42,422 nucleotides of DNA from NCBI GenBank assembly GCA_020438865.1, contig JAGQTU010000028.1:1-42422 (forward strand). Direction: 5' to 3'. The notes beneath the pieces are model-generated. The model was not told where the DNA came from. It worked only from the letters and a program-made list of their open reading frames with translations, and did no database searches. The translations under genes were made by a program, and so were the position numbers. Shown piece by piece: positions 15,678 through 38,754 of the stretch. This stretch comes from Mycobacterium sp. Lineage in GTDB: Bacteria > Actinomycetota > Actinomycetes > Mycobacteriales > Mycobacteriaceae. Every line of letters starts with the position of its first letter. Positions within the stretch are counted from its first letter, which is position 1.

Positions 15678-15790
15678 TCTGGTCACCCTACGTGGGGGAA
15701 CTCGCCCGCCGAGTGCGAACCGTCCGCGAGGCGTCTAGTGAGGTCAGCCTGAGTTCGGGCCGCTCAGAGGCGGTCTGCAACCATGTCGGC

Positions 15791-16210
15791 ATGACTGAGA
15801 TGCCCTCCATCCCGACGGCCGGCTCGATCGCCATCGCCGATCTCACCGGCGACGCGGTGGTCCGCGTGCCCGCCGACGCCACCGTCGCCGAGGTCGCCAA
15901 GGCGATCGCCGACAAGCAGGTCGGCGCGGTCGTGGTCGGCGACGAGGCCCGACCCACCGCGCTGGTGACCGAGCGCGATGTGGTCAAGGTGGTGGCGGCC
16001 GGCAAGGACACGGCCGCGACGCGTGCGGCGGACGTGGCCAGCACCCACCTGCTGTGGTGCGCGGCCGAGGAGACCGTCGACCAGGCGGCGATCCGGATGA
16101 CCGATCACTCCATCCGGCACCTGCTGGTCGAGCGGGACGGGGCGCTGGTGGGCATCGTGTCGGCGCGCGACCTGTTGGGTGTGTACGCGACCGACGCCGA
16201 TCAGGTCTGA
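15791..16210 (+). CDS. CBS-domain pair protein
   Basis: About 139 residues forming one Bateman module: two CBS motifs, the first around VRVPADATVAEVAKAIADKQ with GAVVVGD and LVTERDVVK, the second ending HLLVERDGALVGIVSARDLL. Such proteins bind adenosyl nucleotides and act as regulators or sensors. I take the ATG at 15791 (MTEMPSIP); the frame is open back to 15692, but that stretch reads like intergenic DNA divergent from the crotonase gene. Its last bases overlap the stop of the giant cyclase gene on the other strand by 10 bases. Confidence 0.85.
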   Translation: MTEMPSIPTAGSIAIADLTGDAVVRVPADATVAEVAKAIADKQVGAVVVGDEARPTALVTERDVVKVVAAGKDTAATRAADVASTHLLWCAAEETVDQAAIRMTDHSIRHLLVERDGALVGIVSARDLLGVYATDADQV

Positions 16211-19200
16211 GCCGCGCGTTCCCGGGCGTAGGCGAGGGCGGCTACGTCGTCGTCGGCGTCGAACTCGCACATCGAGGCCGCGCGGCCGTCCTGGTATTCG
16301 TTGACCAGGATCCTCGACCAGGAGTACCGCTCGCCGTCACGTCCGACGCCTTCGCGCTCGAGTCGACCGATATAGACGGTCGGCGACATCCACCGGCCTA
16401 CCGAGAACCATGACCGGACGGTGGGAACCATGGCGTAGAGCTCCTCGTAACTCGCTCGCAGTTCTTCGGCGGTGCGGTCCGGGAAGAGGGAGCGGGAACG
16501 GTTCTTGACACGGAGATCTTTGCTCGACAGCTCACCGAATAGGGTGTCGAAGTCACCGCGGTTGGCGGTAAGCACGTACTCGGCGGCAAGTTTGCCCTGC
16601 GCCTGGAACTCGTCACCCAATTCTCCGTAGTAGCGCGATTCCAGTTCCCGGTACGCCCCTTCGAAGTCGTCCTCGTCGAAGCGGATGTCTCGTGCCACGA
16701 GGCCGTCGTCGTTCAGTTCCCAGACGTGGAGATAGCTCGTCTGATTGCCGGCTGCATCGGACCACCGGCTCCATCCCAGCGCCAGCCGCTCGCCGCGCAC
16801 CGCGAGCAGCCGACTCTCGAAGCTGTTGAATTGCTGTAGGATCCGTTCGACATTTGGACGCAGTGCGGCTTTGCCCACGATCGGGTCGCCGCTGAGGCGC
16901 CGACGATCATCGAAGACATAATCATCGGCGTAATGCGAGAGCAAGCCTCCTGGGTCGCCCTCGTTAAGGCTCCTCGTCGCGTTTGTGAAGAGGGCGCTCG
17001 CTCTGTTGGCCACCACCAGAGGGCTGGTGGAGGCTCGCGCCTGCTCCTCTGCGTGGGCGAAGGCCGCAGCCTCGTCCTCCATCTCGAACTGACACGCGTA
17101 CGTCAACCGCCGGCCCCAGACCTCGCAGACGACGATGCGAGTCCATTCGTACTGTTCACCCGCGTCCCCGACGGCCTCACGCTGATAAAGGCCTACGGCC
17201 CATTGGGGAGATATCCAGCGGATGGCGGCGAACCAGTTGCGCGTTGTTCCGACCAGTCGCTGCAATTCCTCTAGGCTCGAACGTAATTCGGTGGCCGAGC
17301 GGTCGAGGAACACTGAGCGTGATCGACTCTCGACACGCACATCCGGGGTGCATACCTCATCGAACAAGGTGTCGAGGTCACCGCGGCTCAACGTCTCCGT
17401 GTACTTCGCGATGACCATGCCCGGTTGAGCCGATTCGGCACCCTCACCCGCGTAATACCGCTCTTCGAGTTCCCGATATGCGTCCTCGAAGTCGTCCTCG
17501 TCATGACGAACCTCGTACGCGATCCGGTCATCATTGCCGACCTCAATCACATGCAGGTGTGTCGACTCGTTACCCGAGGCGTCAGACCACCTCAACAGAC
17601 ACAGCGCAAAACGTTCGCCGCGCACGGCCAATGGACGGCTCTCGAACGTGTTGAAGTGCTGGAGTACCCGTTCGGTTCCGGCCCGCAGCGACTCGTGACC
17701 GCGGAGTTGGTCGCCACTGAACTGGCGCCGATCGTCGAGGAAGTAGTCCTCTGAAACGCACGAAACGAGCGCCTCGACATCACCGGCGCGCAGGGCCGAC
17801 GTGACGCGCTCGGCCGCCGCGGTAGCACGATTTCGTACAGTGAGCCGACCTTGGGCGGAGCGGAGGCTTTCTTCGGCGAACGCGAGCGCGGCCGCCTCGT
17901 CGTCTTCGTCGAATTCCCAGATTGAGGCAAGCCGGCCGTCGCGGTACATGTTGACGAGAATCCGCGTCCACGCGAACTGCGTGCCGTCGTGCCCGACCCC
18001 CTCGCGCTCCAGGCGGCCAACAGAGGTGGTCGGCGACACCCAGTGCAGACTCGAGAACCACGACCGCACCGAGGCGAGCCTTGCGTAGAGATCCTCGAAG
18101 CTGGCGCGAAGTTCGCGGGCCGAACGATCCGGGAATGGGGATCGCCCCCGGTTCTGGAAGCGGAAGTCGGCGCTGCTCAGCTCGTTGAACATGGTGTCGA
18201 AGTCGCCACGGTTCATCGTTGCCACGTAATCGGCGGCGAACAGACCGTGCTTCGCGAACGCCGCACCCTCGCCGGCGTAGTAGCGACTCTCTAGTTCCCG
18301 GTAGGCGGCTTCGAAGTCGTCCTCGTCGAACCGGGTCTCCCCGCGAAGAAGGCCGTCATCGCCGAGCTCGAACACGTGCAGCTGTGTCGATTCGTTGCCG
18401 GAGTCGTCGGACCACGTGCTCGCGGACAACGCCAGGTGCCCACCGCGTACGGCCAATGTCGTCATCTTGAAGGCGGTGTACTGCGCCAGGACTCGTTCCG
18501 TGCCGGCGCGCAGCGCCTCGTGACCGCGCAGCAGGTAGGCGGCTATCCGCCTGCGATCGTCGATGACGTAATCATCCGAGGCGCAGGCCAGGAGACTGCC
18601 GACATCACCGGCCCGCAGGGCGGCGGTGACGCGTTGAGCCGCCTCGCTGGCGGGATTGCTCGCCGGCAGGGGACTCGAGGTAGCCAGCATCCGCTCTTCC
18701 GCGTAGGCGAACGCCTGCTCCTCGAACTCGACATCAAAGTCGCAGACCGCGGTGTAAAGACCGTTTTCGAACTCGGCGACGTAGATCCGGCTCCACTCAT
18801 AGCACTCGCCGTCCTCGCCGACGGCTTCGCGTTCCTGACGCACCACCGCACATTCGGGAGAGAGCCACCGGACGGCCGAGTACCAGATCCGTGACGAGGC
18901 CACCATCGCGTGGAACAACTCGACGCTGTCGCGTAGCTCTTCCGGCGTTCGCTCGGGGAAGATCGTGCCCGCGCGGCTATCGACCCGCAGCCCGGGAACT
19001 GCCAGTTCGTTGAAGAACTTGTCGTAGTCGTGGTTGTTGCCGACAGTAACAACCTGGGCCGCCGTGTTGCCCGATTCCGCGAAGGCGGCACCCTCGCCGG
19101 AGTAGTAGCGCCGTTCGAGCTCTTCGAAGGCACCGTTGAAGTCGTCTTCGTCGAACCGGGCGTCGGTCACGATGCGGCCGTCCTCACCGACTTCGGCGAC

Positions 19201-22200
19201 ATGCAGGAAGGCCGTTTCGTTTCCGCTGTCGTCGAACCATCTAGTCCGGTAGAGCACCAACAGGTCGCCGCGAACCGCCAGCGTGCGCATCTCGAAGCGG
19301 TTGTACTGGTGAAGAATCCGCTGCAGTGCGAGACGTGAATCAACCTTGCCCTGCAACGGGTCACCGCTGATTCGTCGGTGATCGACGTGGTGAATGTCAT
19401 CGTCGACCAGCGTCAGCGCGGCTTCGATGTCGTGGGCCTGCATCGCGCGCACGAAGGCCTCTGCCGTCCCACTGGCCCGGTTGATGACCGCCAGCCTGCC
19501 CCTGGACGCGTCGACCCGTTCTTTGGCGTAGATGAAGGCCGCGTCCTCATCTACGAACTGCCGCATGTAAGAGAGGAATCCGGCACTGAACTCACCGACA
19601 TGGATTCGCGCCCAGGTGTTGGTGTACTCCTCGCCGGCGGATCCACGTCCCACAACGCCGCCCACGGTGACAAAGCAGTTCGGTGACAGCCACCGAATCA
19701 CGGGCAAGAAGTTCTTGACCGACGACACCTGGCCGGTGCGTTCGCGCTGCCATCGGAAGAACTCGTCGAGGGATCGCTCCTGTGCAACGAATGTCGATGG
19801 CGGACTGAACAGCCTGAAGGTGGGCAGGCAGAGCCTTCGCGCCCGCTCCACATCGAGGGTATCCATCGCTTCAAGGAACTCGATTGTGATCAGACTGTTC
19901 TGCGCGAATTCCGCACCCTCGCCGGAGTAGTAGCGACTCTCAAGTTCGCTATAGGCGCCGTCGAAATCGTCCTCGTCGAAACGGCCGTCGTAGATCACGT
20001 GCCCGTCGTCATCGATCTCGGCAAGGATGATGCCTGCGGACTGGTTGCCGCTATCGTCCGACCAGCGGTGACGCGCGAGCTGTAACCGTTCTCCGCGAAC
20101 CGCGAGTGTGTCCAACTCGAATCGGTTGTAGTGCTTGCCGAATCGCTCGATCGCGGCACGCACCGCTGTGGAGCCGCTGATGGGGTCGCCGCTCAAGCGA
20201 CGCCGGTCGTCGTAAACGACTCGATCCGAGTAGAACGCCGTCGCACCATCGATGTCTCCGGCATAAAGGGCGGCGACGAATCGGCACCCAACCTCGCTGG
20301 CTCGATTCGACACCGCCAGCCTGCCCGAAGTAGCTCGCATCCGCTCCTCGGCGTACGCGAAGGCGGCGTCCTCGTCGTCGACGTCGAATTCACACAACGA
20401 CGCAAACATCCCGCCCCGGATCTCACCCGCGTAAAGCCTGGACCATGTGAGCGTCTCACCGTTGCTACCGACGGCCTCACGTTCGTGTCGCGCCACCACC
20501 CAGTTCGGGGACAGCCAGCAGCAGGCCGGGCTCCACACCCGATAAGAGCTCACCATGGCGCCGAGCTCTTCGACGCTGCGACGAAGCTCTGCGGCGGTGC
20601 GCGTCGGGAAGATTGAGCGTGACCGGCTCTCGATCTCGAGACCGGGCCGTAGGTAGACGCTGAAGGCGCCATCGAGATCGCCCCGGTTTTCGGCTAGAAC
20701 GATCTCGGTGAGTGCCCTGCCCTCCGCCGCGTAGGGCGTCCCCTCGCCGGTGTAGTACCGGCGCTCGAGCTCCGTGTAGGCAGCTTTGAAGTCGTCCGCG
20801 TCGAAGCGCGCGTGATAGTCGATCAGGCCGTCTTGGTTGACGCCGACCAAATGCAGATGCGCTGCCTCGTTCCCCGCTTCATCCGACCATTTACTCCAAC
20901 CGAGAGCCAGGCGATCGCCTCGTACGGCCAGCATTCCGTTGTCGAACCGCTTGTACTGCTGGAAGACTTGCTCAGCCGCGACGCGCATCTCGTCGATGCC
21001 AGAGATGGGGTCGCCGCTGAATGGGCGTCGGTCGTCATAGACGAACTCGTTTGCATATGGTTCGACGACTCGGTTGGCGTCGTGAGCGCGCATCGCGGCC
21101 ATCATGGCTTCGCCCGCCTCGCTGGCCCGGTTGCACACCGCCAGCCGACTCGCGGCGGCGCGCATGCGCTCCTCGGCGTAGGCGAAGGCCGCCTCCTCGT
21201 CGTCGGCATCGAACTCGCACAGCGAAGTGAAGCGCCCGCCGTGGGTTTCGCCGGCCCACAGCCGCGACCAGGAGAGCTTTTCGCCATTGCGACCGAGGGC
21301 CTCGCGCTCGTGGCGCGCGACGATCCAGTTCTTGGACAGCCAACAGGCCGCCGGGCTCCACACCCGATAGGAGGTGACCATGGCGCTGAGTTCCTCGACG
21401 CTACGACGCAGTTCATCAGCGGTGCGGGTGGGGAACACCGAGTGGGAGCGACTCTCAATCCGAAGGCCCGGCGCCGAAAAGATCTGGAAGGCGCCGTCCA
21501 GATCACCTCGGTTTTCCGCATGGAGATTCGCAACCAGCGGCAAGCCCTCGTCCGCGTAAGGCGCACCCTCTCCGGCGTAATAACGCCGATCGAGTTCGGC
21601 GTAGGCGGCGGCGAAGTCGTCCTCGTCGAAGCGGTCCTGGAAGACGATCCGCTCGCTGTCGTCAGTCTCATTCAGTATGAGGGCTATGGACTGGTTCCCG
21701 GAGTCGTCCGACCACCGATGGCGCAGGAGATGCAGCCGCTCACCCCGGGTGGCGATGATGTCGATCTCGAACCGGTTGTAGAGCCGAACAATCCGCCCCC
21801 ACGCGTCGCGCATGCTGTCACGATCGGTGACCGGTCCGCCGCTGAGCCGGCGATGGTCGGCGTGAACATAGTTGTCCGCGTAGGCTTCGACGATGGTGTC
21901 CAGGTCGCCGGCTCGGAGCGCGGCGAGGACCCGGTAGGCCATCCTGGACGGGGCGTTCATCAGCGAGAGTCGAGACGACTTCTCCGTGACAACCGATTCG
22001 GCGTAGCCGAACGCCGAGTCCTCGTCGTCGAACTCCCGCACGGCGAGCACGAGCCCGTCGCGGCACTCGGTCACCACGACCAAGTTCCAGTCGTAGTGCT
22101 CGCCGTCTGGACCGACGGCCGCGATCTCTCCGAGACTGACTGCGCAGTTCGGTGACCGCCACACCAACGCGGGCACCCAATGGCGCTGGGACGATACCTG

Positions 22201-25200
22201 GCGTCCCCGCTCCTGCCACCATCGGAACATGTCGTCGACGGTGCGCTCAGCGTCTTTGAGTGCCGACGGCGTCGCGTACCAACGGAAGTCGGGGTGGGAA
22301 GCGCGGCGAACGCCCTCGATGTCGCCGTTGCTGATCGCTCCAACCCAATCGGCCGCCGCCCGACCGCCGATCGCGAACGCCGCGCCCTCGCCGGCGTAGT
22401 AGCGCTCTTCGAGTTCGCGGTAGGCGGTCCAGAAATCGTCTCCGACGAAGTACAGCAGGCGGGTGATCAGCCCATCCTCGCCGAGTTCGGCCACGTGCAG
22501 ATTGGTTGCCTCATTTCCGGACTCGTCGAACCATCGACTCCATGCGAGGCATAGTCGGTCGCCACGGACAGCGAGAATGCGGGTCTCGAAGTGGTCGTAC
22601 TGGCCTAACAGTGCCGGGACGACTTCGCTCAAGTAGTCGACGCCTGTTTCCAGAGCACCGGCGAGTGGACGCCTGTCCTGGTAGAGGACTTCAGCTGCAA
22701 ACAGACTGGAGACGGCGCCGGGGTCGTTGGCCTGCAACGCGGCAAATGCCTTCTCCAGTGCCCGGCTGGCCGCGTTGACCACGATCAGCCGGCTGTTTCG
22801 TTGTTTGACAAGCGATTCCGCGAATGCGAATGCGGCGTCCTCGTCCTCGGGCTCGAATCCATACACCATGTCGAACAGTCCGTCGCGAAAAACCGAGACG
22901 AATAGTTCTGACCAGGCATAGTCCGCGCCGTCGCGGCTGATTCCGCGTGCCTCGCCGATATTGACCGCAACGTCGGGCGACAGCCATGTGATCGCGGAGG
23001 TCCAGTTCAGCACGGAGTCCACCTGTTCGGCGCGCCGCCGAAACCAGACCATCGCCTCATCGATCGTGCGTACCGGGTCGGCCAACGCCCGCGTCGGCGA
23101 TAGCCACCGGAAATCGGAGTGGCACAATTGGCGGGCGGCTGCGGCGTCCAGGTGGACCAGCGCCTCCACGAAGGCCGACTGTGTGCGACCGTGCTCCGCG
23201 TATGCAACACCCTCGCCGGCGTAGTACCGGGCGTCCAATTCCCGGTATGCAGAGCAGAAGTCGTCTTCAGCAAAGTACAGCAGGCTGGCGATCAGCCCAT
23301 CCTCGCCGAGCTCCGTCACACTCAGACTGGTCGCTTCGTTCCCGTTGTCGTCCCACCAGTGCAGTTCCGCCAGACACAGCCGATCGCCGCGAACGGCGAG
23401 GACGTGGCCTTGGTGGTGGTCGTACTGCGCCATCATGGCGGGAATGCTCTCGCTCAGATAGTCGATGCCCTTAATCATTGCGCCGGCAAGCGGATGCCGG
23501 TTCTTGTAGACGATCTCCGCCGAAAAGTGTTTGATCACGCCCTTCGGGTCGTTGCTCTGGAGCGCCTCGATCGCCCGCTCGAATACCTGACTGGCCGCAT
23601 TGGCCACCACCAGTCGCCGCTGCTTCTGTGTAACAAGCGATTCGGCGTAGGCGAACGCCGCATCCTCGTCATCGAATTCGCCTACAGATTCGACCAACCC
23701 GTTCGCGAAGGTGCCGACATAGATCCCCGACCAGCTGTATTCGGCACCGTCGCTATTCATTCCACGGGCGTCGCCGGCGCCCACCCACACGTCGGGTGAC
23801 AACCATGCGATTGCGGAATTCCATTGCCGCACCGATCCGGCCTGTTGGACACGCTCCCCCCACCAGTCGATGAGTTCGTCCACCGTGCGCGCGGGGAGGG
23901 TCAATGTCGAGGGCAGTGACAGCCAACGGAATTCGGGTCGGCACAGTCGTCGGATAGCCGCGCCATCCAGGTGGTTCATCGCTTCGACGAATGCGGACTG
24001 CGTGCGCCCGTGCTCGGCATAGGGCTTGCCCTCGCCGGCGTAGTACCACGCTTCCATCTCCTGGTAGGCGCCATCGAAGTCGTCGTCAGCGAAGTAGACC
24101 ATTCTGGCGATGAGGCCATCGTCGCCGAGCGCGATCACGTGCAGGTTGCCTGACTCGTTACCGGTGTCGTCCGACCATCGACTCCAGGCGAGGCCAATCC
24201 GATCACCGCGCACGGCCAACGTGTGACCCGCGAAGTGACTGTACTGCGCCCGCAGCGCGCCAACGGCCTCAGTCAAGTAGTCGATGCCGGTGACCAGTTC
24301 GCCGGCAACGGGGCGCCTGTCCTCGTAGACGATATGCGGGGAGAACAAAGCATTGACGGCGGCGACGTCTTCGGCCTGCAGGCCTGCTATCGCCCTGTCG
24401 AGCACCCCGCTGGCCGCATTGGCCGCCACCAGCCGCCGCTGCTTCGGTGCGACAAGCGATTCGGCGTAGGCGAACGCGGCATCCTCGTCGTCGACGTCGA
24501 ACTCCCTGACCGAGACGGTCAGTCCATCCCGATACTCGGAGGCGTAAATCCCGCTCCAGTCGTACTCCTCGCCGTCGGTGCCTGTTCCATGGATCTCAAT
24601 GAAACTCACACCGCAGTTGGGCGACACCCAGCGGATGGTCGCCGCCCATATCTTCATAGTCGAGAGCTGTCGCGCGCGCTCGTCCTGCCACGCGAACAAC
24701 TCGTCGACCGAACGCTCTTCGGGCTTCAGCGACGACGGCGACGCCAGCCACCGGAAGTCCGGCCGGGAGATCCCCCGCGCCGCCTCAACGTCGCGCCGCG
24801 ACATGGCCTCGACCCACGCGCTCCCAGTCCGGCCGATCTCGGCGAAGGCGGTGCCTTCGCCGGCGTAGTAGCGCGCCTCCATCTCGCGATAGGCGCCCTC
24901 GAAGTCGTCACCATCGAAGCGGCCGTGGTATCCGATGAGACCATCGGCTGCGAGTTCGTGGACGTTGAGCGTGACCGACTCGTTGCCGGCGTCATCCCAC
25001 AAGCGGCCGCGGATCAAAACCAACGTGTCGCCACGCACCGCGAGGATCTGCGACTCGGCATGTGGATAGTCGGCAATGGCGCGCTCGGCGACCTTACGCG
25101 CCCAATCCGGCCCGGCGAGAGGGCCACCGCCGATCGATCGGCGGTCGTCATAGACTGATTGATTCGAGAATGTCGCTGCTACGGCCTCTATGTCGTGAGC

Positions 25201-28200
25201 GTTAAGTGCCTCCCAGCCCGCTTCGGCAAGGTCGCTGGCGCGGTTCCGCACCGCCAGTCGTGACCCCTTCGCAACCACCTTTGGCGCCGGCGACGCGGCA
25301 ACACCCACCACCTCTGCGGCGCGGGTCACCATGAACACGGCATCCTTGGCGGCGTACAGCGATTCGGCATCGCTGCGAGCACGGGCGGCCGCCGACCCGT
25401 CACCCGCTGCGGCCAGCACCCGGCTCAACGCAAGGCATGCATCGGCGTGATCGAGTACCAGGTCGGTCTCGCCGGCGACCGCGACCGCCTCGCGGGCCTT
25501 GGCGATGGCGACCTCGTGCTGGCCCTGGGCCGAGAGGATTTCCGCGCGGACCGCCCGCCAGCCGATGGCAGTCTTCAGATTGTGCCCGGCGATCCGTTCA
25601 CTTTCGGCGGCATAACGATCGGCCTCATCGATACGATCTTGGGCCAGAACGGATCTGGCGAGCAGCGCCGCCGCCTGCCCGGCGTCGGCACCGACGCCCA
25701 GGGCGTCGAGCCCTTCCAGCGCGGTGCGGAAGTGCGGTTCCGCGGCCACCGGGTCGCCCACCATCAGTTCGATGATCCCGGCGTACAACTCGGTCTCCAT
25801 CAGCCCATGCCGCAGACCGAGTTCGGCCACCACCTGACGGGCATCGGCAAGCATCGAGCGTGCTTTGTCCGGGCGGCCCCGCAGCAGCTCCAGCACGGCC
25901 AGGCAGCGCAGCGAGGTGGCCTCCAGCGACGGTGCCGCCGTCGTCATGCGTTGCATCCGAACCACATCCAGGCATCGCCCGCCCGCCTTGGGCGCCGGGC
26001 TCGGTCCCCACAGTGCGGCATTCGGGGCGGCGCCCAGCGCGGCGGTGATCTGGCGGTGATCCCCGCCGCGCCGGGCCGCGATCAGCGCCTCGAACAGGTC
26101 GACTTCGGCATCACCCACCCGCCCGAGCCGGGCCCGGGCGTTCGCCCGGACCCGGTGCGCCTTGGCCAGTCCGGCGGCATCCCCGCGTCGCGCGAACTCG
26201 TCGATGGCCTCCTGGAGCCGGTCATCGGCCTCGGGCAGCCGGCTCGGATCGGTGTAGACGACCAGCTGGCATCGGTAGCAGATCGCCCACGGTGCCAACG
26301 CTTCTCCCGCGATTCGCTCCAGGTCGTCTACCAACGGCGACCCCGCAGCCACGTCACCCGCAGACAGGAAGGCCTCGCAGCCCACCAACAGCAACTCGGC
26401 GTGCAGTGCGGAGTCGGCGGAGGCGAGCGCGGCGCCGCGCGCCGCCTGGGTGCCAGCCGACACCAGTTCGTCGCGGTCGAGCGCGCGGCGCGCCGAGGAC
26501 AGATAACTCCGCGCGGATCGCAGGGCGAGTTCGGCGCTGTGCGCGTCGCGCAGCCCGAGGTCCGCTCGATAGCCCTGCGCCGCCTCCAGGTTGCGGGCGA
26601 CCATCTCGTCGGATTCGATCGCCAGTTTGGTGCCGCCGGCCTCCACCCAGTTCGCCAACCGCTCGTGCAGATCGGCTCGCTCGGATTTCAACAGCCTGCG
26701 GTAGGCGACGTCACGGATCAGGACGTGGTGGAACCGCCACACCGCCTCGTCACCGGCGTAGGTGCCGCTGGGCTGCGCGAGGTCGAGCCGGCGCAGCCGA
26801 TTGAGCGCGGAGGTGATCTCGGCCTCCCGCAGCCCGGCCAGCTCGGCCACCGTGCCGGCGGCGAAATCGGTGCCGATCACCGAGGCGACCTCCAGCACGC
26901 GGCGGTCGGCGGGCTTGAGTCGCTCGAGGCGTGATGCGAGCAGCGCCTGGATGGTCGGCGGGACGTCGATGTCGTCGGCGTCCACGGTGAGGCGCCAGCC
27001 GTCGGGCTTGGGGGCCAGCACCCCGTCGTGCACCAGCATGCCGACCAGTTCCCGTACGAATAGCGGGTTGCCACCGGTCGAGGTGGGCAGCCGGCGCAGC
27101 AGCTCCTCCGGCAGGCGGTCGCTGCCCAATACGCGCCCGGCCAACTCCGCCGTCGCGCCGGACTCCAGACCGCGCAACCGGACCGCCTCGGTGACCCAGC
27201 CGCCGACGGTGATGAGATCGGGCCGGGTCTCGCGCAGTTCGGGGCGGGCCAGCGCGATCATCAGCACGGGCGCGCCGCGAACCCACTCCGCGAGGTGCTC
27301 GATGAGGTCGAGCAGCAGGCTGTCCGCCCATTGGATGTCGTCGAAGATAAGCACCAGCGGGTCACCTGCGGCGAGCACCTCCACGAAGCGGCGCAGTGCC
27401 CAGAACGTCTCCTCGACCGAACCTGGGACACCGGATGTCATGCCGGTCAGGTCGCGCAGCATGCGGTCGCGTTCGGCGGTGCCGGCCGGGATCTCGGCGT
27501 CCAGATCGAGCGGCCGCAACACCTCCACGACGGGCGCCAGGGCCGGGCTGCCCTCCACCGCGCAGCGCACGTCGAGCACCCGCGCACCGGGCAGGGATCG
27601 CGCGAACTCCGCCGCCAGCCGGGTCTTGCCGACACCAGGATCGCCGGTGACGGTGACCAGGCGGGCGGCCCGTGTTGCCGCGGTGTTGTCGAAAACCCTT
27701 CGCAGCCGCTGCAATTCGTCGCCGCGGCCGACGAATGAAATCGCTTCGGCGGCCGCCGAGCCGAGCCATCGGTACACCGGGACCGGCGCCTGCCTGCCCT
27801 TCACCGGAACGGCGCCGAGCGGTTCGTACCGGTGCCGGCCACGGGTCGCGCGCCAGGTCTCCCCGCCGACCACGACCTGCCCGTGCGGGCACTCCGACTC
27901 CAGACGGGCCCCGACGTTCAACGCGTCACCGACCAGGTCCGCGTCGTCGGCGCCGACCACCACCTCGCCGGTGTTGACCGCCACCCGCAGGGCCAGCTCA
28001 ACCCCGTGTGCCTCGGCCACCGCGCGGGCCAGCCCGACAAAGCGCTCCTGCAGGTCGACGGCCGCGTCGACCGCCCGGCCGGCATCGTCATCCCCGATCT
28101 CGGGCACCCCCCAGACGGCCATGAACCCGTCACCGATGTACTTGGTCACCCCGACCCGATGCCGCTCGGCGGTGGAGCGCAGCAGCTCGTGGTAGCGGCC

Positions 28201-28485
28201 GATCACTTCGCGGGCGGTCTCGGCGTCGACGATTTCTTCGAACGCCGTCGACCCGGCCAGGTCGGCGAACAGGACGGTCACGATCTTGCGGGTCGGCCCC
28301 TCGGCGGTGGGGGGCAGCGCCTCGCCGTCCAATGGCGAGCCGCACCCTTTGCAGAACCGCGCGGTAGCACTGACGGTGACACCGCACGCACCGCAGGTTC
28401 GCTCCAGCGCGGTGCCGCAGCCCTCGCAGAAGCGGGCGTCGGCTTCATTCGGTGTGCCGCAGGCGGTGCAGGCGCGGGTGGTCAT
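16201..28485 (-). CDS. Giant zinc-ribbon/class III cyclase/AAA-ATPase/TPR protein with 11 tandem NTF2-like double modules
   Basis: Single open frame of 4,094 residues. Order: two zinc ribbons (C6/C9/C20/C23 and C31/C34/C45/C48); class III nucleotide cyclase about 65-240 with metal Asp D75 and D119, adenine-selecting K115 and D183, and N190/R194, so it looks active; AAA/STAND-type ATPase about 250-560 with Walker A GDPGVGKT (281-288) and Walker B LVLIFDD (377-383); TPR-like helical region about 620-1060; then eleven units of 273-275 residues (1076-4094). Each unit has two halves that look NTF2/SnoaL-like (LAVRGDRL, SDDSGNE, FDEDDF, RYYAGEG; then WLSP, DGE, EFDDEDAAFAYAE). No HTH output domain, signal peptide or membrane segment is seen. 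Relatives with cyclase-ATPase-TPR and a few C-terminal NTF2-like domains exist in actinobacteria; the copy number here is exceptional. ATG at 28485, three bases after the phosphotransferase stop. Confidence 0.95.
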   Translation of the reverse strand: MTTRACTACGTPNEADARFCEGCGTALERTCGACGVTVSATARFCKGCGSPLDGEALPPTAEGPTRKIVTVLFADLAGSTAFEEIVDAETAREVIGRYHELLRSTAERHRVGVTKYIGDGFMAVWGVPEIGDDDAGRAVDAAVDLQERFVGLARAVAEAHGVELALRVAVNTGEVVVGADDADLVGDALNVGARLESECPHGQVVVGGETWRATRGRHRYEPLGAVPVKGRQAPVPVYRWLGSAAAEAISFVGRGDELQRLRRVFDNTAATRAARLVTVTGDPGVGKTRLAAEFARSLPGARVLDVRCAVEGSPALAPVVEVLRPLDLDAEIPAGTAERDRMLRDLTGMTSGVPGSVEETFWALRRFVEVLAAGDPLVLIFDDIQWADSLLLDLIEHLAEWVRGAPVLMIALARPELRETRPDLITVGGWVTEAVRLRGLESGATAELAGRVLGSDRLPEELLRRLPTSTGGNPLFVRELVGMLVHDGVLAPKPDGWRLTVDADDIDVPPTIQALLASRLERLKPADRRVLEVASVIGTDFAAGTVAELAGLREAEITSALNRLRRLDLAQPSGTYAGDEAVWRFHHVLIRDVAYRRLLKSERADLHERLANWVEAGGTKLAIESDEMVARNLEAAQGYRADLGLRDAHSAELALRSARSYLSSARRALDRDELVSAGTQAARGAALASADSALHAELLLVGCEAFLSAGDVAAGSPLVDDLERIAGEALAPWAICYRCQLVVYTDPSRLPEADDRLQEAIDEFARRGDAAGLAKAHRVRANARARLGRVGDAEVDLFEALIAARRGGDHRQITAALGAAPNAALWGPSPAPKAGGRCLDVVRMQRMTTAAPSLEATSLRCLAVLELLRGRPDKARSMLADARQVVAELGLRHGLMETELYAGIIELMVGDPVAAEPHFRTALEGLDALGVGADAGQAAALLARSVLAQDRIDEADRYAAESERIAGHNLKTAIGWRAVRAEILSAQGQHEVAIAKAREAVAVAGETDLVLDHADACLALSRVLAAAGDGSAAARARSDAESLYAAKDAVFMVTRAAEVVGVAASPAPKVVAKGSRLAVRNRASDLAEAGWEALNAHDIEAVAATFSNQSVYDDRRSIGGGPLAGPDWARKVAERAIADYPHAESQILAVRGDTLVLIRGRLWDDAGNESVTLNVHELAADGLIGYHGRFDGDDFEGAYREMEARYYAGEGTAFAEIGRTGSAWVEAMSRRDVEAARGISRPDFRWLASPSSLKPEERSVDELFAWQDERARQLSTMKIWAATIRWVSPNCGVSFIEIHGTGTDGEEYDWSGIYASEYRDGLTVSVREFDVDDEDAAFAYAESLVAPKQRRLVAANAASGVLDRAIAGLQAEDVAAVNALFSPHIVYEDRRPVAGELVTGIDYLTEAVGALRAQYSHFAGHTLAVRGDRIGLAWSRWSDDTGNESGNLHVIALGDDGLIARMVYFADDDFDGAYQEMEAWYYAGEGKPYAEHGRTQSAFVEAMNHLDGAAIRRLCRPEFRWLSLPSTLTLPARTVDELIDWWGERVQQAGSVRQWNSAIAWLSPDVWVGAGDARGMNSDGAEYSWSGIYVGTFANGLVESVGEFDDEDAAFAYAESLVTQKQRRLVVANAASQVFERAIEALQSNDPKGVIKHFSAEIVYKNRHPLAGAMIKGIDYLSESIPAMMAQYDHHQGHVLAVRGDRLCLAELHWWDDNGNEATSLSVTELGEDGLIASLLYFAEDDFCSAYRELDARYYAGEGVAYAEHGRTQSAFVEALVHLDAAAARQLCHSDFRWLSPTRALADPVRTIDEAMVWFRRRAEQVDSVLNWTSAITWLSPDVAVNIGEARGISRDGADYAWSELFVSVFRDGLFDMVYGFEPEDEDAAFAFAESLVKQRNSRLIVVNAASRALEKAFAALQANDPGAVSSLFAAEVLYQDRRPLAGALETGVDYLSEVVPALLGQYDHFETRILAVRGDRLCLAWSRWFDESGNEATNLHVAELGEDGLITRLLYFVGDDFWTAYRELEERYYAGEGAAFAIGGRAAADWVGAISNGDIEGVRRASHPDFRWYATPSALKDAERTVDDMFRWWQERGRQVSSQRHWVPALVWRSPNCAVSLGEIAAVGPDGEHYDWNLVVVTECRDGLVLAVREFDDEDSAFGYAESVVTEKSSRLSLMNAPSRMAYRVLAALRAGDLDTIVEAYADNYVHADHRRLSGGPVTDRDSMRDAWGRIVRLYNRFEIDIIATRGERLHLLRHRWSDDSGNQSIALILNETDDSERIVFQDRFDEDDFAAAYAELDRRYYAGEGAPYADEGLPLVANLHAENRGDLDGAFQIFSAPGLRIESRSHSVFPTRTADELRRSVEELSAMVTSYRVWSPAACWLSKNWIVARHEREALGRNGEKLSWSRLWAGETHGGRFTSLCEFDADDEEAAFAYAEERMRAAASRLAVCNRASEAGEAMMAAMRAHDANRVVEPYANEFVYDDRRPFSGDPISGIDEMRVAAEQVFQQYKRFDNGMLAVRGDRLALGWSKWSDEAGNEAAHLHLVGVNQDGLIDYHARFDADDFKAAYTELERRYYTGEGTPYAAEGRALTEIVLAENRGDLDGAFSVYLRPGLEIESRSRSIFPTRTAAELRRSVEELGAMVSSYRVWSPACCWLSPNWVVARHEREAVGSNGETLTWSRLYAGEIRGGMFASLCEFDVDDEDAAFAYAEERMRATSGRLAVSNRASEVGCRFVAALYAGDIDGATAFYSDRVVYDDRRRLSGDPISGSTAVRAAIERFGKHYNRFELDTLAVRGERLQLARHRWSDDSGNQSAGIILAEIDDDGHVIYDGRFDEDDFDGAYSELESRYYSGEGAEFAQNSLITIEFLEAMDTLDVERARRLCLPTFRLFSPPSTFVAQERSLDEFFRWQRERTGQVSSVKNFLPVIRWLSPNCFVTVGGVVGRGSAGEEYTNTWARIHVGEFSAGFLSYMRQFVDEDAAFIYAKERVDASRGRLAVINRASGTAEAFVRAMQAHDIEAALTLVDDDIHHVDHRRISGDPLQGKVDSRLALQRILHQYNRFEMRTLAVRGDLLVLYRTRWFDDSGNETAFLHVAEVGEDGRIVTDARFDEDDFNGAFEELERRYYSGEGAAFAESGNTAAQVVTVGNNHDYDKFFNELAVPGLRVDSRAGTIFPERTPEELRDSVELFHAMVASSRIWYSAVRWLSPECAVVRQEREAVGEDGECYEWSRIYVAEFENGLYTAVCDFDVEFEEQAFAYAEERMLATSSPLPASNPASEAAQRVTAALRAGDVGSLLACASDDYVIDDRRRIAAYLLRGHEALRAGTERVLAQYTAFKMTTLAVRGGHLALSASTWSDDSGNESTQLHVFELGDDGLLRGETRFDEDDFEAAYRELESRYYAGEGAAFAKHGLFAADYVATMNRGDFDTMFNELSSADFRFQNRGRSPFPDRSARELRASFEDLYARLASVRSWFSSLHWVSPTTSVGRLEREGVGHDGTQFAWTRILVNMYRDGRLASIWEFDEDDEAAALAFAEESLRSAQGRLTVRNRATAAAERVTSALRAGDVEALVSCVSEDYFLDDRRQFSGDQLRGHESLRAGTERVLQHFNTFESRPLAVRGERFALCLLRWSDASGNESTHLHVIEVGNDDRIAYEVRHDEDDFEDAYRELEERYYAGEGAESAQPGMVIAKYTETLSRGDLDTLFDEVCTPDVRVESRSRSVFLDRSATELRSSLEELQRLVGTTRNWFAAIRWISPQWAVGLYQREAVGDAGEQYEWTRIVVCEVWGRRLTYACQFEMEDEAAAFAHAEEQARASTSPLVVANRASALFTNATRSLNEGDPGGLLSHYADDYVFDDRRRLSGDPIVGKAALRPNVERILQQFNSFESRLLAVRGERLALGWSRWSDAAGNQTSYLHVWELNDDGLVARDIRFDEDDFEGAYRELESRYYGELGDEFQAQGKLAAEYVLTANRGDFDTLFGELSSKDLRVKNRSRSLFPDRTAEELRASYEELYAMVPTVRSWFSVGRWMSPTVYIGRLEREGVGRDGERYSWSRILVNEYQDGRAASMCEFDADDDVAALAYARERAAQT
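16204..25260 (-). repeat. Coding tandem array: 11 units of about 825 bp
   Basis: Unit boundaries, set at the Arg or Pro opening the motif RLAVxNRAS, read along the minus strand: 1, 25260-24436; 2, 24435-23617; 3, 23616-22792; 4, 22791-21973; 5, 21972-21148; 6, 21147-20323; 7, 20322-19498; 8, 19497-18673; 9, 18672-17848; 10, 17847-17023; 11, 17022-16204. Eight units are 275 codons; units 2, 4 and 11 are 273. Units are diverged at protein level, so this is an old, selected array and not a collapsed assembly repeat. By eye the array is less GC-rich than the cyclase/ATPase part. Confidence 0.93.
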
Positions 28486-28488
28486 GGC

Positions 28489-29553
28489 TCAGTCCGGCCT
28501 CAGCGCCAGCGCGTCGTTGTCTTCGATGGCCGTCGCGGCGCCGTCGGCCATCGTGTGAAGTAGATCAAGATGGCGGTCGTTCACCACTTCGATGCGTCCC
28601 GCGACCAGCAGGGGATAGATGAAGCACAGCGCCGTGGTGAGCCGGTAGTCGCGCTCTAGTTCGGTTGCGGGGTAATCGATTCCGGCCTCGGCCAGTCGAC
28701 TGCGGTAGCGCTCGATCAGCGGGGCCTCGCAGGCCCGCCGGGTTTCGGTGGTCAGGCTCTGGCTCACGAAGTAAGCCAGATCGTAGGCACCCCGGCAGAG
28801 CTGGGTTACCTGCCAGTCCAGGGCCGTCACCGGCGGGTCGCCGGGGCCGGTGCCGAAGAACAGCTGGTCGAGCCGCAGGTCCCCGTGGATGAACGTGCAC
28901 GGCGGGCGGGAGAGCTGTTCGAGGTACCACGGGATCAGCGACGGTAGACGTTGCCCGAAGTCCCGTAGCTTTGGTGACAGGTCGTCGCCGACGAGTTCCA
29001 AGAAGCGCGGCCAGGCCGCTTTCGCGTTGGCGGCGAGCACGGCGGGGAACGGGGGAGTGATGTACGGCCTCAACCACGGCAGGGCGCTCAGCCGGTCGCT
29101 CTCCCACCAGTGCGCGTGCTGGCGGGCGATGGCATCGACCACCGTTTCGGCGTCCCCCGGTGTGCAACCGATGGTCTGGTCGGCTAAGCGAAGCCGCTGA
29201 AGATCCTCGAGCACCAGGACGAAGTCGTGGGTGGCCTCGTCGATAGTGGCGAAGTACGGATGAGCCGGCGGCAGCGGATTGGCCTCGCCAATCTCTTGAT
29301 AGAAGCGGACCTCCTTCAGGTAGAGGTCGAGGTCCTCGCCGAGCGCGGAGCGGGCCTGCTGATCGAGCGTCGGAAACTTGATCACCACGGACGCAGGGAC
29401 AGCACTGCCCTCCAGGTGGACCCGGTAGAGCCGGCCGAGCAGTCCGACCCCGATCCCGATCTGCTCCATCCGGAAGCCACGGACCTCGCCGCCGAGGACC
29501 TCGCTGAGCCATTCGGGCGTGACGAATCGCGGATCGACCGGAAACCACCCCAT
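28489..29553 (-). CDS. APH/ecdysteroid-kinase-like phosphotransferase
   Basis: 354-residue protein of the aminoglycoside phosphotransferase/choline kinase fold. Visible: a nucleotide-binding lysine candidate in VVIKFPT (K59), LVLEDL hinge, Brenner motif FIHGDLRLDQLFF (H223, D225) and the metal Asp in ALDWQ (D246). The usual Asn of the HGDxxxxN motif is Gln (Q230), which may change metal binding. Mycobacteria hold many such enzymes of unknown substrate; there is no reason to call it a resistance gene. It has GGAGGG upstream of the ATG at 29553, and its stop is 3 bases from the start of the giant cyclase gene, so they form an operon. Confidence 0.85.
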   Translation of the reverse strand: MGWFPVDPRFVTPEWLSEVLGGEVRGFRMEQIGIGVGLLGRLYRVHLEGSAVPASVVIKFPTLDQQARSALGEDLDLYLKEVRFYQEIGEANPLPPAHPYFATIDEATHDFVLVLEDLQRLRLADQTIGCTPGDAETVVDAIARQHAHWWESDRLSALPWLRPYITPPFPAVLAANAKAAWPRFLELVGDDLSPKLRDFGQRLPSLIPWYLEQLSRPPCTFIHGDLRLDQLFFGTGPGDPPVTALDWQVTQLCRGAYDLAYFVSQSLTTETRRACEAPLIERYRSRLAEAGIDYPATELERDYRLTTALCFIYPLLVAGRIEVVNDRHLDLLHTMADGAATAIEDNDALALRPD

Positions 29554-29725: not shown

Positions 29726-30433
29726 CTACGAAGCCACCACCCAGATCGCCTGTGCCGCAGGGCTTCCCAACTCCACGGTGCTGTGCTCCCCATCGGCCGA
29801 CTGCACCGAGACCGAGATCATCCCGGCGAAGTCGCGCCGCGCCAGCACCTCCAGCCGTGAATCCAGGTTGATGCCGACCGCGTCGAAGTAGCGCAGCATC
29901 TCCGGGTCCGCGTCCGATATCCGCGCCACGGTGCCGTGGTCGCCGTCCGCGCAGGCCGACAACTGCCGGGCCGGGGGAGTCGGCACCTGGCCGTCGGTGG
30001 CCGGGATCGGGTCGCCGTGCGGATCCCGGGTGGGGTGGCCGAGCTTGGCATCGATCCGGTCCAACATCAGGTCACTGACCGCGTGCTCCAGGATCTCGGC
30101 CTCGTCGTGCACCTCGTCCCAGCCGTAGCCGAGCTCGCTGACCAGGAAGGTCTCCAGCAGTCGGTGGCGGCGCACCACCGCCAGCGCAGCGTGCCGGCCG
30201 CGCTCGGTCAGCGTCACCGCGCCGTACTTCTCGTGGTGCACCAGACCCTGCTCGGCAAGCTTTCGGATCGACTCCGAGGCGGTGCTGGCCGACACCCCGA
30301 GGCGCTCGGCCAACAGCTTGGTGCTCACTTTCTCGTGCGACCACTCCTGGGTGGTCCAGATGATCTTGAGGTAGTCCTGGGCGACCGTCGTCAGGTCGCG
30401 TACCCCGGCGTTCGGCCGCTCGTCAGGACTCAC
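29726..30433 (-). CDS. sirR: DtxR/MntR-family metal-dependent regulator SirR
   Basis: Metal-responsive repressor (iron or manganese). About 235 residues: winged HTH at the N terminus (VSTKLLAERLGVSASTASESIRKLAEQGLV), dimerisation and metal-binding helices with RRHRLLETFLV and DEAEILEHAVSD, then a C-terminal SH3-like domain. It corresponds to M. tuberculosis SirR (Rv2788), also next to ribF. I prefer the GTG at 30433; a TTG at 30451 is possible. It is divergent from ribF, with a 19-bp DtxR-like palindrome in between. Confidence 0.9.
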   Translation of the reverse strand: MSPDERPNAGVRDLTTVAQDYLKIIWTTQEWSHEKVSTKLLAERLGVSASTASESIRKLAEQGLVHHEKYGAVTLTERGRHAALAVVRRHRLLETFLVSELGYGWDEVHDEAEILEHAVSDLMLDRIDAKLGHPTRDPHGDPIPATDGQVPTPPARQLSACADGDHGTVARISDADPEMLRYFDAVGINLDSRLEVLARRDFAGMISVSVQSADGEHSTVELGSPAAQAIWVVAS

Positions 30434-30443
30434 AGCGCAAAGT

Positions 30444-30462
30444 TTAGGCAATCATCACCTGA
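30444..30462. promoter_or_regulatory. Candidate DtxR/IdeR-like box between sirR and ribF
   Basis: A 19-bp element with outer half-sites TTAGG and CCTGA separated by nine bases, the same geometry as the IdeR/DtxR consensus (TTAGG-N9-CCTAA), matching about 13 of 19 positions. It lies just upstream of sirR, suggesting metal-dependent autoregulation. The match is imperfect, so the call is tentative. Confidence 0.35.
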
Positions 30463-36821: not shown

Positions 36822-37843
36822 TGTTCGGCCTGTCCGACCTCGCGGTCCCCATCATCGGGGCTCCGATGGCGGGCGGGCCCGGCACCGCGGCCCTGGCGGC
36901 GGCGGTGTCCAACGCCGGCGGGCTGGGCTTCCTGGCGGCCGGTTACCTGACCGCGGAGAAATTCGCCGACGGCATCGCCGCGACCCGGGCCGCGACCACC
37001 GGGCCGATCGGCGTGAATCTCTTTGTGCCGCAGCCCTCGCTGGCAACTTCTGCCGCGCTCGACCGCTATCGAGAAGAGCTCACGCCGCTGGCCGAGCGCT
37101 ACGGGGTCGAGCCCGGCCAGACCCACCCCGACGACGACGCCTGGGGCCCCAAGATCGACGTGGTCGCCGACACCGCGCCCGAAGTGGCGTCGTTCACGTT
37201 CGGCTGCCCGTCGGCGGAGACCCTTGCCCGGCTGAGCACACGTGGTGTGCTCGCGGCGGTGACGGTCACCTCGCCGGCCGAGGCCGGAATCGCCGTGGGT
37301 GCCGGCGCCGACGTGCTGGTGGTGCAGGGGCCCGAGGCCGGCGGTCACCGCGGCACGTTCGATCCCGGCCGGCGACCGGGGGAGGAGCCGCTGGACGTGC
37401 TGCTGTCGGCCATCTGTGCTGCCCACGAGGTTCCGGTGATCGCCGCCGGTGGGCTGACGACCGCTGGCGACGTCCGGCGGGCACTGGGCCACGGTGCGTG
37501 TGCCGCCCAGGCCGGAACGGCCCTGCTGCTGGCCGATGAGGCGGGCACCAATCCCGTTCACCGGCAGGCACTGTCGGACCCGCAGTTCAGCCACACGGTG
37601 GTCACCTGCGCGTTCTCCGGCCGCTATGCGCGGGGCCTGGCCAACGGCTTCACCGACCGCTACGACCCGGTGGCGCCGCTGGGCTATCCGGAGGTGAACC
37701 AGTTGACCGGGGCGATGCGCCGCGCTGCGATCGCCGCGGGCGACCCGCACGGCACCAATCTGTGGGCCGGCACGGCCTGGCGCGGGATCCGAGGCGGGGC
37801 TGCCGCCGGCATCGTCGCCGCGTTGACCGAGGAGGTCACATGA
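36821..37843 (+). CDS. Nitronate monooxygenase (2-nitropropane dioxygenase family)
   Basis: FMN-dependent TIM-barrel enzyme that oxidises alkyl nitronates; 340 residues. Recognisable: IIGAPMAGGPGTAALAAAVS with SNAGGLGFLAAGY at the N terminus, GVNLFVPQP, phosphate-binding GPEAGGHRG and AAGGLTTAGDVRRAL. M. tuberculosis Rv2781c is the syntenic relative. The start is the ATG at 36821, overlapping the pepR stop; its own stop overlaps the ATG of the beta-lactamase gene. Confidence 0.92.
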   Translation: MFGLSDLAVPIIGAPMAGGPGTAALAAAVSNAGGLGFLAAGYLTAEKFADGIAATRAATTGPIGVNLFVPQPSLATSAALDRYREELTPLAERYGVEPGQTHPDDDAWGPKIDVVADTAPEVASFTFGCPSAETLARLSTRGVLAAVTVTSPAEAGIAVGAGADVLVVQGPEAGGHRGTFDPGRRPGEEPLDVLLSAICAAHEVPVIAAGGLTTAGDVRRALGHGACAAQAGTALLLADEAGTNPVHRQALSDPQFSHTVVTCAFSGRYARGLANGFTDRYDPVAPLGYPEVNQLTGAMRRAAIAAGDPHGTNLWAGTAWRGIRGGAAAGIVAALTEEVT

Positions 37844-38754
37844 CGTTCTCGCGTCGCCACCTGCTGATCGCGGGTGCGGCACTTACCGCTGCCGCGGCGT
37901 GCGGGCACAAGCAGTCCTACACGCCACCCCGATTGAGCGATCCCGCCGAACCGCTGCCGCCACTGGACGATCGCATCGGCCTGCTCGAGAAGCGCGACAA
38001 CGCCTTCGTCGGGCTCTATGGGCTGAACCTGGAGTCGAACGCCACGGTGGCGCACCGCGACAACGACATGTTCGCGATGTGCTCGACCTTCAAGGCGTAC
38101 CTGGCCGCACGGGTACTGCAGAAGGCCCAGCGCGGCGAGTTGGTCATGACCGACACCCTGTATGTGGATCCGGCTAAGCTGCAACCGAACTCGCCGATCT
38201 CCGCGCCCAGGGCCGGCGGCCGGCTCCCGCTCGACGAGCTGTGCCGGGCGGTGCTGCAGCGCAGCGACAACACCGCGGCCAACATGCTACTTCGCGCGAT
38301 CGGCGGCCCAACGGCCATCACCGAGTTCGCCCGTTCCATCGGCGACGAGCACACCCGGCTGGACCGCTGGGAGATCGAACTGAACTCCGCGCTGCCCGGC
38401 GATCCGAGGGACACCAGCACCCCGCGCGCCTTCGGCGGCGGGGTCCGCGCGATCCTGACCGGAGACGTTCTCGACGAGGTGCACCGCCGCCAGCTCGAGG
38501 ACTGGATGCGCGGCAATGTGACGTCGCGGATGCGGGCGGGTCTGCCGCCGGGCTGGACGTCGGCCGACAAGACCGGAAGCGGCGACTTCGCCAGCACCAA
38601 TGACATCGGAATCGTGTTCGGGCCCAGCGGCGAACGCATCCTGCTCGCGGTCATGACCCGCACCCAGTCGAACGACCCCAAGGCACCGGCGCTGGGCCAG
38701 CTCATCGCGGATGTGACGACGCTGGCCCTGCCCACCCTGCGTGGGCTGGTCTAG
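37840..38754 (+). CDS. blaS: Class A beta-lactamase (BlaS-type)
   Basis: 304 residues with all class A motifs: S82-T-F-K85 (CSTFK), S142-D-N144, omega-loop E178 in LDRWEIELN, and K244-T-G-S-G. The N terminus MTFSRRHLLIAGAAL is a twin-arginine signal, followed by Cys21 in AAAAC, which might be lipidated although the lipobox is weak. SDN (not SDG) and the omega loop wording place it nearer M. smegmatis BlaS than M. tuberculosis BlaC, and BlaS has the same neighbours (upstream of ald). The ATG overlaps the stop of the nitronate monooxygenase gene, so it is probably expressed with the gpsI-pepR run. Confidence 0.93.
   Translation: MTFSRRHLLIAGAALTAAAACGHKQSYTPPRLSDPAEPLPPLDDRIGLLEKRDNAFVGLYGLNLESNATVAHRDNDMFAMCSTFKAYLAARVLQKAQRGELVMTDTLYVDPAKLQPNSPISAPRAGGRLPLDELCRAVLQRSDNTAANMLLRAIGGPTAITEFARSIGDEHTRLDRWEIELNSALPGDPRDTSTPRAFGGGVRAILTGDVLDEVHRRQLEDWMRGNVTSRMRAGLPPGWTSADKTGSGDFASTNDIGIVFGPSGERILLAVMTRTQSNDPKAPALGQLIADVTTLALPTLRGLV

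Follow-up and report, generated by a model that had tools for sequence, protein, structure and literature searches.

Relation of the locus to described systems

Mycobacteria have many adenylyl cyclases, the input signals of which are mostly unknown. In PMC4452763, 16 such enzymes are counted for M. tuberculosis, and the combination of a cyclase with an AAA/NB-ARC ATPase is termed nearly exclusive to mycobacteria. The Mclx proteins treated there (Rv0386, Rv1358 and Rv2488c of M. tuberculosis) consist of a class III cyclase followed by an AAA/NB-ARC ATPase and end in a LuxR helix-turn-helix (HTH). Here, we analyzed a stretch of 42,422 nucleotides (nt) from Mycobacterium sp. (contig JAGQTU010000028.1 of assembly GCA_020438865.1; the whole stretch is termed the window), which encodes a protein of 4,094 amino acids (aa), hereafter the giant, with the same order of cyclase and ATPase. 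In contrast to the Mclx proteins, the giant carries zinc ribbons in front and 11 doublets of NTF2-like domains behind, gave no match to HTH families in a Pfam scan up to E 1, and is accompanied by a dedicated EcKL-type phosphotransferase gene. Judging from sequence, we tentatively read the two genes as a chemical-sensing system, in which a STAND-like cyclase receptor would bind small molecules through exchangeable NTF2 doublets and the EcKL protein would modify the ligand; we place this reading just short of an even chance.

Other described proteins share parts of this architecture. Residues 67-1004 match the cyclase-ATPase-helical part of the TOMM kinase/cyclase fusion TIGR03903 with 166.1 bits, but the cut-off of that family is 705.75 bits, and the Pfam scan revealed neither a fused kinase domain nor sigma-2 or sigma-4 regions in the giant. 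The ECF41 sigma factors SigJ and SigI offer a precedent for the array, since according to PMC8999054 they likewise bear a SnoaL-like C-terminal extension with an inhibitory, regulatory role on a signaling protein. However, this is one extension on a sigma factor compared with 22 domains on a cyclase/ATPase, and the likeness is one of mechanism by analogy only.

No description of NTF2-array cyclases or of an EcKL-type partner of such cyclases was found in the full-text literature searched, outside of which most subscription journals lie; the one paper retrieved for the former concerns a Streptomyces sigma factor. Judging by title and start of abstract, none of the papers listed for EcKL-like proteins in bacteria dealt with bacterial EcKL proteins. 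Within the literature searched, the giant represents a variant of the cyclase/STAND architecture with a previously undescribed kinase partner. An initial annotation of this DNA had suggested an undescribed protein, which holds for the publications searched, but not in the sense of a rarity, as homologues are widespread in the genus.

A single frame joins cyclase, ATPase and array

The giant is encoded at positions 16201..28485 of the minus strand, the strand of all features described below unless stated otherwise. From the ATG at 28485 to the stop codon at 16201-16203 there is no internal stop, while the plus-strand reading of the same interval is broken by many stops. The uninterrupted frame proposed in the initial annotation is thus correct, with the addition of the strand, which had been left unstated. 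GC content at codon positions 1, 2 and 3 is 0.67, 0.47 and 0.78 in the array and 0.77, 0.52 and 0.86 in the N-terminal part (the chassis), a pattern expected of coding DNA that supports the frame as coding. The lower third-position value of the array (window 16201-25263; 0.78 vs 0.86) recurs in the 26 relatives compared, with a mean difference of -0.043.

Pfam agrees with the domain order proposed earlier. A DZR double zinc ribbon (aa 6-49; 28339..28470; 38.7 bits) precedes a class III cyclase domain (Guanylate_cyc, aa 68-232; 27790..28284), which also aligns, among other structures, to PDB entry 5oyh across aa 67-232. A STAND-like AAA_16 ATPase follows (aa 251-409; 27259..27735), and a TPR_12 match lies inside the linker region (aa 855-926; 25708..25923). 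The Pfam matches of the giant furthermore include SnoaL_2 in 16 stretches (E 4e-80) and DUF4440 in two.

The cyclase appears active, as had been suggested earlier, and its catalytic residues are all present. The metal-binding Asp residues are found in the motifs FADL and YIGD, the substrate-binding Lys in TKYIGD and Asp in ADLVGD, and the transition-state Asn and Arg in LNVGAR. The ATPase shows a Walker A motif (GDPGVGKT) and a Walker B motif (LIFDD), with the helical repeats of TPR_12 behind.

Eleven units form an array of 22 domains

The array consists of units that start at aa 1075, 1350, 1623, 1898, 2171, 2446, 2721, 2996, 3271, 3546 and 3821 and measure, in this order, 275, 273, 275 and 273 aa, six times 275 aa, and 274 aa. 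Unit cutting and alignment placed units 1 to 6 at 24439..25263, 23620..24438, 22795..23619, 21976..22794, 21151..21975 and 20326..21150, and units 8 to 11 at 18676..19500, 17851..18675, 17026..17850 and 16204..17025, the last of which reaches the C-terminus. Unit 7 (19501..20325) looks mosaic, as its first domain is closest to those of units 11 and 8 and its second to that of unit 1. Leave-one-out profiles recovered 11 of 11 units at full length with 315-377 bits, and none of 200 shuffled arrays matched, which excludes chance. Pairwise, the units are 30-58% identical. With units this diverged, and with related arrays of other lengths in other genomes, we rejected an assembly artefact through collapse or expansion of repeats.

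Count and length of the units are those given in the initial annotation, but each unit turned out to be composed of two domains. An A domain of 130 aa is followed by a B domain of 143-145 aa, and the array follows the pattern (AB)11. A and B share ~20% identity and are related in a profile-profile comparison (E 4e-7). The unit is thus a doublet of different NTF2/SnoaL-like domains, and the array holds 22 of them. For the A domain, this family assignment, also made earlier, is borne out by profile matches to SnoaL_2 at E<=0.01 in 39 of 45 domains (11 from the window and 34 of 123 from relatives). For the B domain it is more tentative, with SnoaL_2 matches in 19 of 45 (11 from the window and 34 of 125 from relatives). 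Single A domains match the Pfam families SnoaL_2, SnoaL or LEH. Among the best relatives of the A domain in a profile search of PDB, though with weak E-values (0.002-0.1), were MonB, limonene epoxide hydrolase and ketosteroid isomerase as well as a designed NTF2 protein. MonBI/MonBII, the hydrolase and the isomerase are enzymes and differ from the giant in having no signaling part. For A and B we infer an NTF2 fold.

Two lineages share the doublet

Among 396 genomes of the genus, 178 matched the unit model (E<=1e-3), 30 of them at the strength of the giant's own lineage (clade I; best E <1e-80), 8 weakly (best E >1e-10) and 140 in between. Related frames of 4,126-4,935 aa exist. Uniqueness of the array was therefore rejected, and with it the earlier view that the array is exceptionally long. 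All 24 named related loci belong to Mycobacterium or Mycolicibacterium, and the nearest relative is the Mycobacterium metagenome-assembled genome HKST-UBA43, with 79% identity across a unit. Outside the genus, a strong match was found only in one genome (G694, locus L111) when the order (298 genomes) and the phylum (396 genomes) were sampled; the three samples overlap, those of order and phylum include genus members, and up to 5-8 candidates were scored per genome. The 1,877-aa frame at L111 combines five NTF2-like domains with zinc ribbons, a cyclase and an ATPase, and is 46% identical across aa 6-388.

Clade I shares the zinc-ribbon cyclase chassis of the giant, including the DZR. A strict (AB)n order with n = 3-11 was observed in 18 of the 21 proteins counted, which are those with an in-frame chassis not cut by a contig end; of the others, L049 and L051 contain an additional A domain, and the ends of L063 consist of partial units. 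A count of units per species had been proposed in the initial annotation, and by this count the giant has the most units and is the longest protein found in clade I, though not overall. The 21 further clade I loci whose chassis lies in frame retain the cyclase and Walker motifs, except that in L077 a Ser replaces the Gly ahead of the D-A-L-N motif.

Clade II (L071-L076, L078-L087 and L105-L109) carries the doublet on a different chassis. In the one protein scanned, Trans_reg_C and BTAD, as in SARP-type regulators, precede the cyclase and AAA_16; the other N-termini are alike, except for L080, where the Trans_reg_C/BTAD part is missing. The largest member, L105, has 4,935 aa and about 26 NTF2-like domains. 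One genome, G211, holds two clade II giants (4,838 and 4,136 aa) in addition to a clade I gene. Shortly upstream of the one with 4,838 aa, the other strand carries a second cyclase-ATPase-like stretch (L106:3785-4543). A midpoint-rooted domain tree, for which the 11 units of the window and 30 of the 135 units of clade II were sampled, joined clade I A domains with the first domains of clade II and four outgroup domains (support 0.99), and clade I B domains with the second domains of clade II (support 0.84). Since the domains group by A and B across clades, the A-B doublet probably predates the split.

A charged signature, Asp-x-Arg…Arg-Gly, is near-invariant in the A domains of both lineages. 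In clade I, D40, R42, R77 and G78 are present in 131, 125, 133 and 133 of 133 units, and in clade II in 132, 132, 135 and 132 of 135, with the qualification that units were chosen by unit-model score, which favors conserved ones. The B domain is without this signature, but three Trp residues are near-invariant in its clade I copies (129, 128 and 132 of 133).

An EcKL-type gene is linked to clade I

Directly upstream of the giant lies a gene for an EcKL-type phosphotransferase of 354 aa (28489..29553; Pfam EcKL 49.6 bits, cut-off 22), with 3 nt between its stop codon and the ATG of the giant. In a 30-row alignment of orthologues, the His-Asp catalytic motif HGD is invariant and LDW is conserved. 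The initial annotation missed this gene, which is apparently part of the system.

Of 32 loci tested, 29 have an EcKL orthologue directly ahead of the giant, with a gap of about -7 to +13 nt, an estimate like the start codons of the relatives on which it depends. The remaining loci are the outgroup L111, L068, where a 422-aa remnant of the array is left, and L070, whose array piece lies at a contig edge. Across the genus, orthologues (E<=1e-60) were confined to clade I genomes (29 of 30, against 0 of 366 others), with at most 5-8 candidates scored per genome and with the unit and EcKL surveys, each of 396 genus genomes, taken as one set; all 29 EcKL genomes are among the unit matches. The clade I genome without the gene, G183, has only 422- and 331-aa frames bearing array pieces. 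For 21 clade II loci, the flanking sequence retrieved, which is short in some, showed no orthologue. The window's genome contains nine EcKL-family matches, namely the partner gene and others such as G000:C311:26696-27439 and G000:C366, and none of the others scored reaches E 1e-60 against the partner protein.

The two-gene cassette occupies at least two sites. An IdeR-like gene adjoins it in the window and in seven relatives (L047-L052 and L055), and a gene of the SelR (methionine sulfoxide reductase) family, one member of which was checked by Pfam, adjoins it in 19 loci. The neighboring gene clusters differ between the two sites, although few neighbors are named. In the Mycolicibacterium hodleri remnant (L068:8904-11179), the IdeR-like gene and other neighbors are kept and a short array frame is left; EcKL and the N-terminal part of the giant were not found at this locus. 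The occurrence at two sites and this joint absence argue for a functional link between EcKL and giant, although shared ancestry inflates their association.

Turnover and probable exchange of units

Seven gene pairs, which were drawn from six genes and are not independent, show 87.5-92.9% DNA identity in the last 900 chassis codons. For 45 of 53 units, the best match (59-97% across units) fell below the lowest 825-nt chassis window. Synonymous divergence (pS) in six of these pairs was 0.06-0.65 for units, which were selected as best-matching, 0.05-0.40 for the chassis and 0.32-0.53 for EcKL. As EcKL diverges more than the chassis, the contrast may in part reflect a recently homogenised chassis and not fast units.

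Two observations are unaffected by this caveat. Within the pair L053/L062, pS of units spreads from 0.08 to 0.55. Moreover, unit 7 of L053 and unit 5 of L058 are 95.6% identical at a chassis identity of 75.5%, which points to the exchange of a single unit between two distant species. In a unit tree, the units of the giant form the groups 2-4, 5-6 and 9-11, the latter together with two L048 units. The ratio of nonsynonymous to synonymous divergence (dN/dS) against L047, the nearest relative, is 0.11-0.14 for the N-terminal part, 0.17 for unit 1 and 0.31 for unit 2, and 0.14-0.40 for seven other unit pairs.

A putative chemical-sensing system and its alternatives

Starting from the architecture, the catalytic residues, the A signature, the unit turnover, the strict EcKL linkage and the doublet on a second, DNA-binding chassis, all of which are read directly from the sequences, we infer a working model for ligand binding, the direction of regulation, the EcKL substrate and the cyclic AMP (cAMP) output. 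The array would present diverged, exchangeable small-molecule sites, whose ligands would most likely be hydrophobic or polycyclic. Class III cyclases act as dimers, and occupancy of the sites would be relayed via the TPR linker and a switch formed by the STAND-like ATPase to the dimeric N-terminal adenylyl cyclase, setting its activity and hence the production of cAMP. The EcKL-type kinase would phosphorylate the same class of ligand and thereby activate, inactivate or trap it.

That the array is the input is suggested by the homologous doublet standing C-terminally on two signaling chassis, the zinc-ribbon cyclase and the SARP/BTAD-cyclase. NTF2-like domains usually contain pockets; together with a charged signature kept amid divergence and a fixed partner from a small-molecule-kinase family, this points to small-molecule sites. 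In a weak alignment, D40 of the A domain lines up with the Asp of the EDP motif of MonB, the base position of ketosteroid isomerase.

Several points weigh against this model. The charged conserved site could serve protein contacts or domain packing, and its near-invariance was counted on score-selected units. In the PDB profile search, nothing significant was obtained for the B domain, its top three matches (E 0.13-0.19) being GTP-binding proteins, and its SnoaL_2 matches are the sparser ones. The EcKL protein has a Gln where the usual motif has Asn. Furthermore, for an allosteric switch that is finely tuned, a unit number varying from 3 to 11 would be odd.

The first alternative is an NLR-like receptor for foreign proteins or cells, whose variable array would recognise protein ligands, e.g. 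from phages or competitors, and whose STAND-like ATPase would then switch on the cyclase. The ATPase itself and C-terminal units more divergent than the chassis fit such a receptor, as do matches to the Pycsar cyclase models of PADLOC (E 5e-12 to 5e-6). However, these matches do not extend beyond the cyclase domain (aa 64-215) and could reflect mere class III cyclase similarity, while the EcKL-type partner and the near-invariant charged site in NTF2-like domains point to small ligands instead. The repeats of fungal NLR proteins are very similar to each other, whereas the units here are strongly diverged and not homogenised within the gene. Variable repeats are documented for NLR repertoires of fungi (PMC4986451, PMC1805685), which likewise join a nucleotide-switch protein to a variable repeat array, but with domains different from those of the giant. 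Altogether, we consider a receptor for foreign proteins unlikely.

We regard as quite unlikely a multivalent scaffold, in which the array gathers a single kind of partner protein, possibly EcKL, in numerous copies around the cyclase. The regular 130/145 domain steps, the Trp residues of B (128-132 of 133) and the fixed EcKL partner would all suit it. A scaffold for a single partner should, however, keep one surface, whereas the units diverge strongly and turn over, and the EcKL orthologue was not seen in the clade II flanks retrieved, some of which are short. Sensing, we think, fits better than a passive scaffold.

The proteins might alternatively be a widespread, unnamed family of mycobacterial cAMP-making enzymes with an array length set by neutral drift, in line with their occurrence across the genus and the varying unit number. 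The dN/dS values given above, the strict kinase linkage and the near-invariant signature speak against drift and render it improbable. Very improbable, finally, is an array of SnoaL/isomerase-type enzyme domains with cyclase and ATPase controlling a multi-step conversion: the weak D40 alignment with MonB and the matches of single A domains to SnoaL_2, SnoaL or LEH would fit, but B is without the signature, 22 catalytic copies would be unusual and the two cassette sites have unlike neighboring gene clusters, few members of which are named.

Returning to the chemical-sensing model, its boldest version would be a receptor repertoire for small molecules in the manner of fungal NLRs, a nucleotide-switch cyclase with a shuffled, horizontally exchanged library of doublet binding sites and an obligate EcKL that tags the recognised compounds. 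We find this extension doubtful; if true, mycobacteria would carry differing chemical 'address books' whose outlet is cAMP or, for the SARP lineage, transcription. This widespread and apparently unnamed family of very large cyclases offers a testable place to seek input signals of mycobacterial cyclases: its arrays vary from species to species and contain up to 22 candidate binding domains in clade I and about 26 in clade II, and clade I adds a kinase partner that is nearly one-to-one. It would also show how bacterial sensors diversify through the exchange of whole domain pairs.

Genomic surroundings of the cassette

Plasmid or phage carriage was rejected, as unit 6 matched 0 of 72,556 plasmid and 0 of 50,697 phage records; relatives of EcKL occur on 26 plasmid records, all below 60% identity. 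A tRNA-linked island was dismissed because the window contains no tRNA, and a defence system because PADLOC found nothing for EcKL and, for the giant, only the matches to Pycsar cyclases within its cyclase domain. The gene for the iron-dependent repressor (IdeR-like; window 29726-30451) lies just past EcKL and is a conserved neighbor at one of the cassette sites. On the plus strand, an open reading frame with a CBS domain (window 15692-16210) converges with the giant and overlaps its 3' end by 10 nt. A gene of the Pfam Beta-lactamase2 family at window 37762-38751 bears no relation to the giant.

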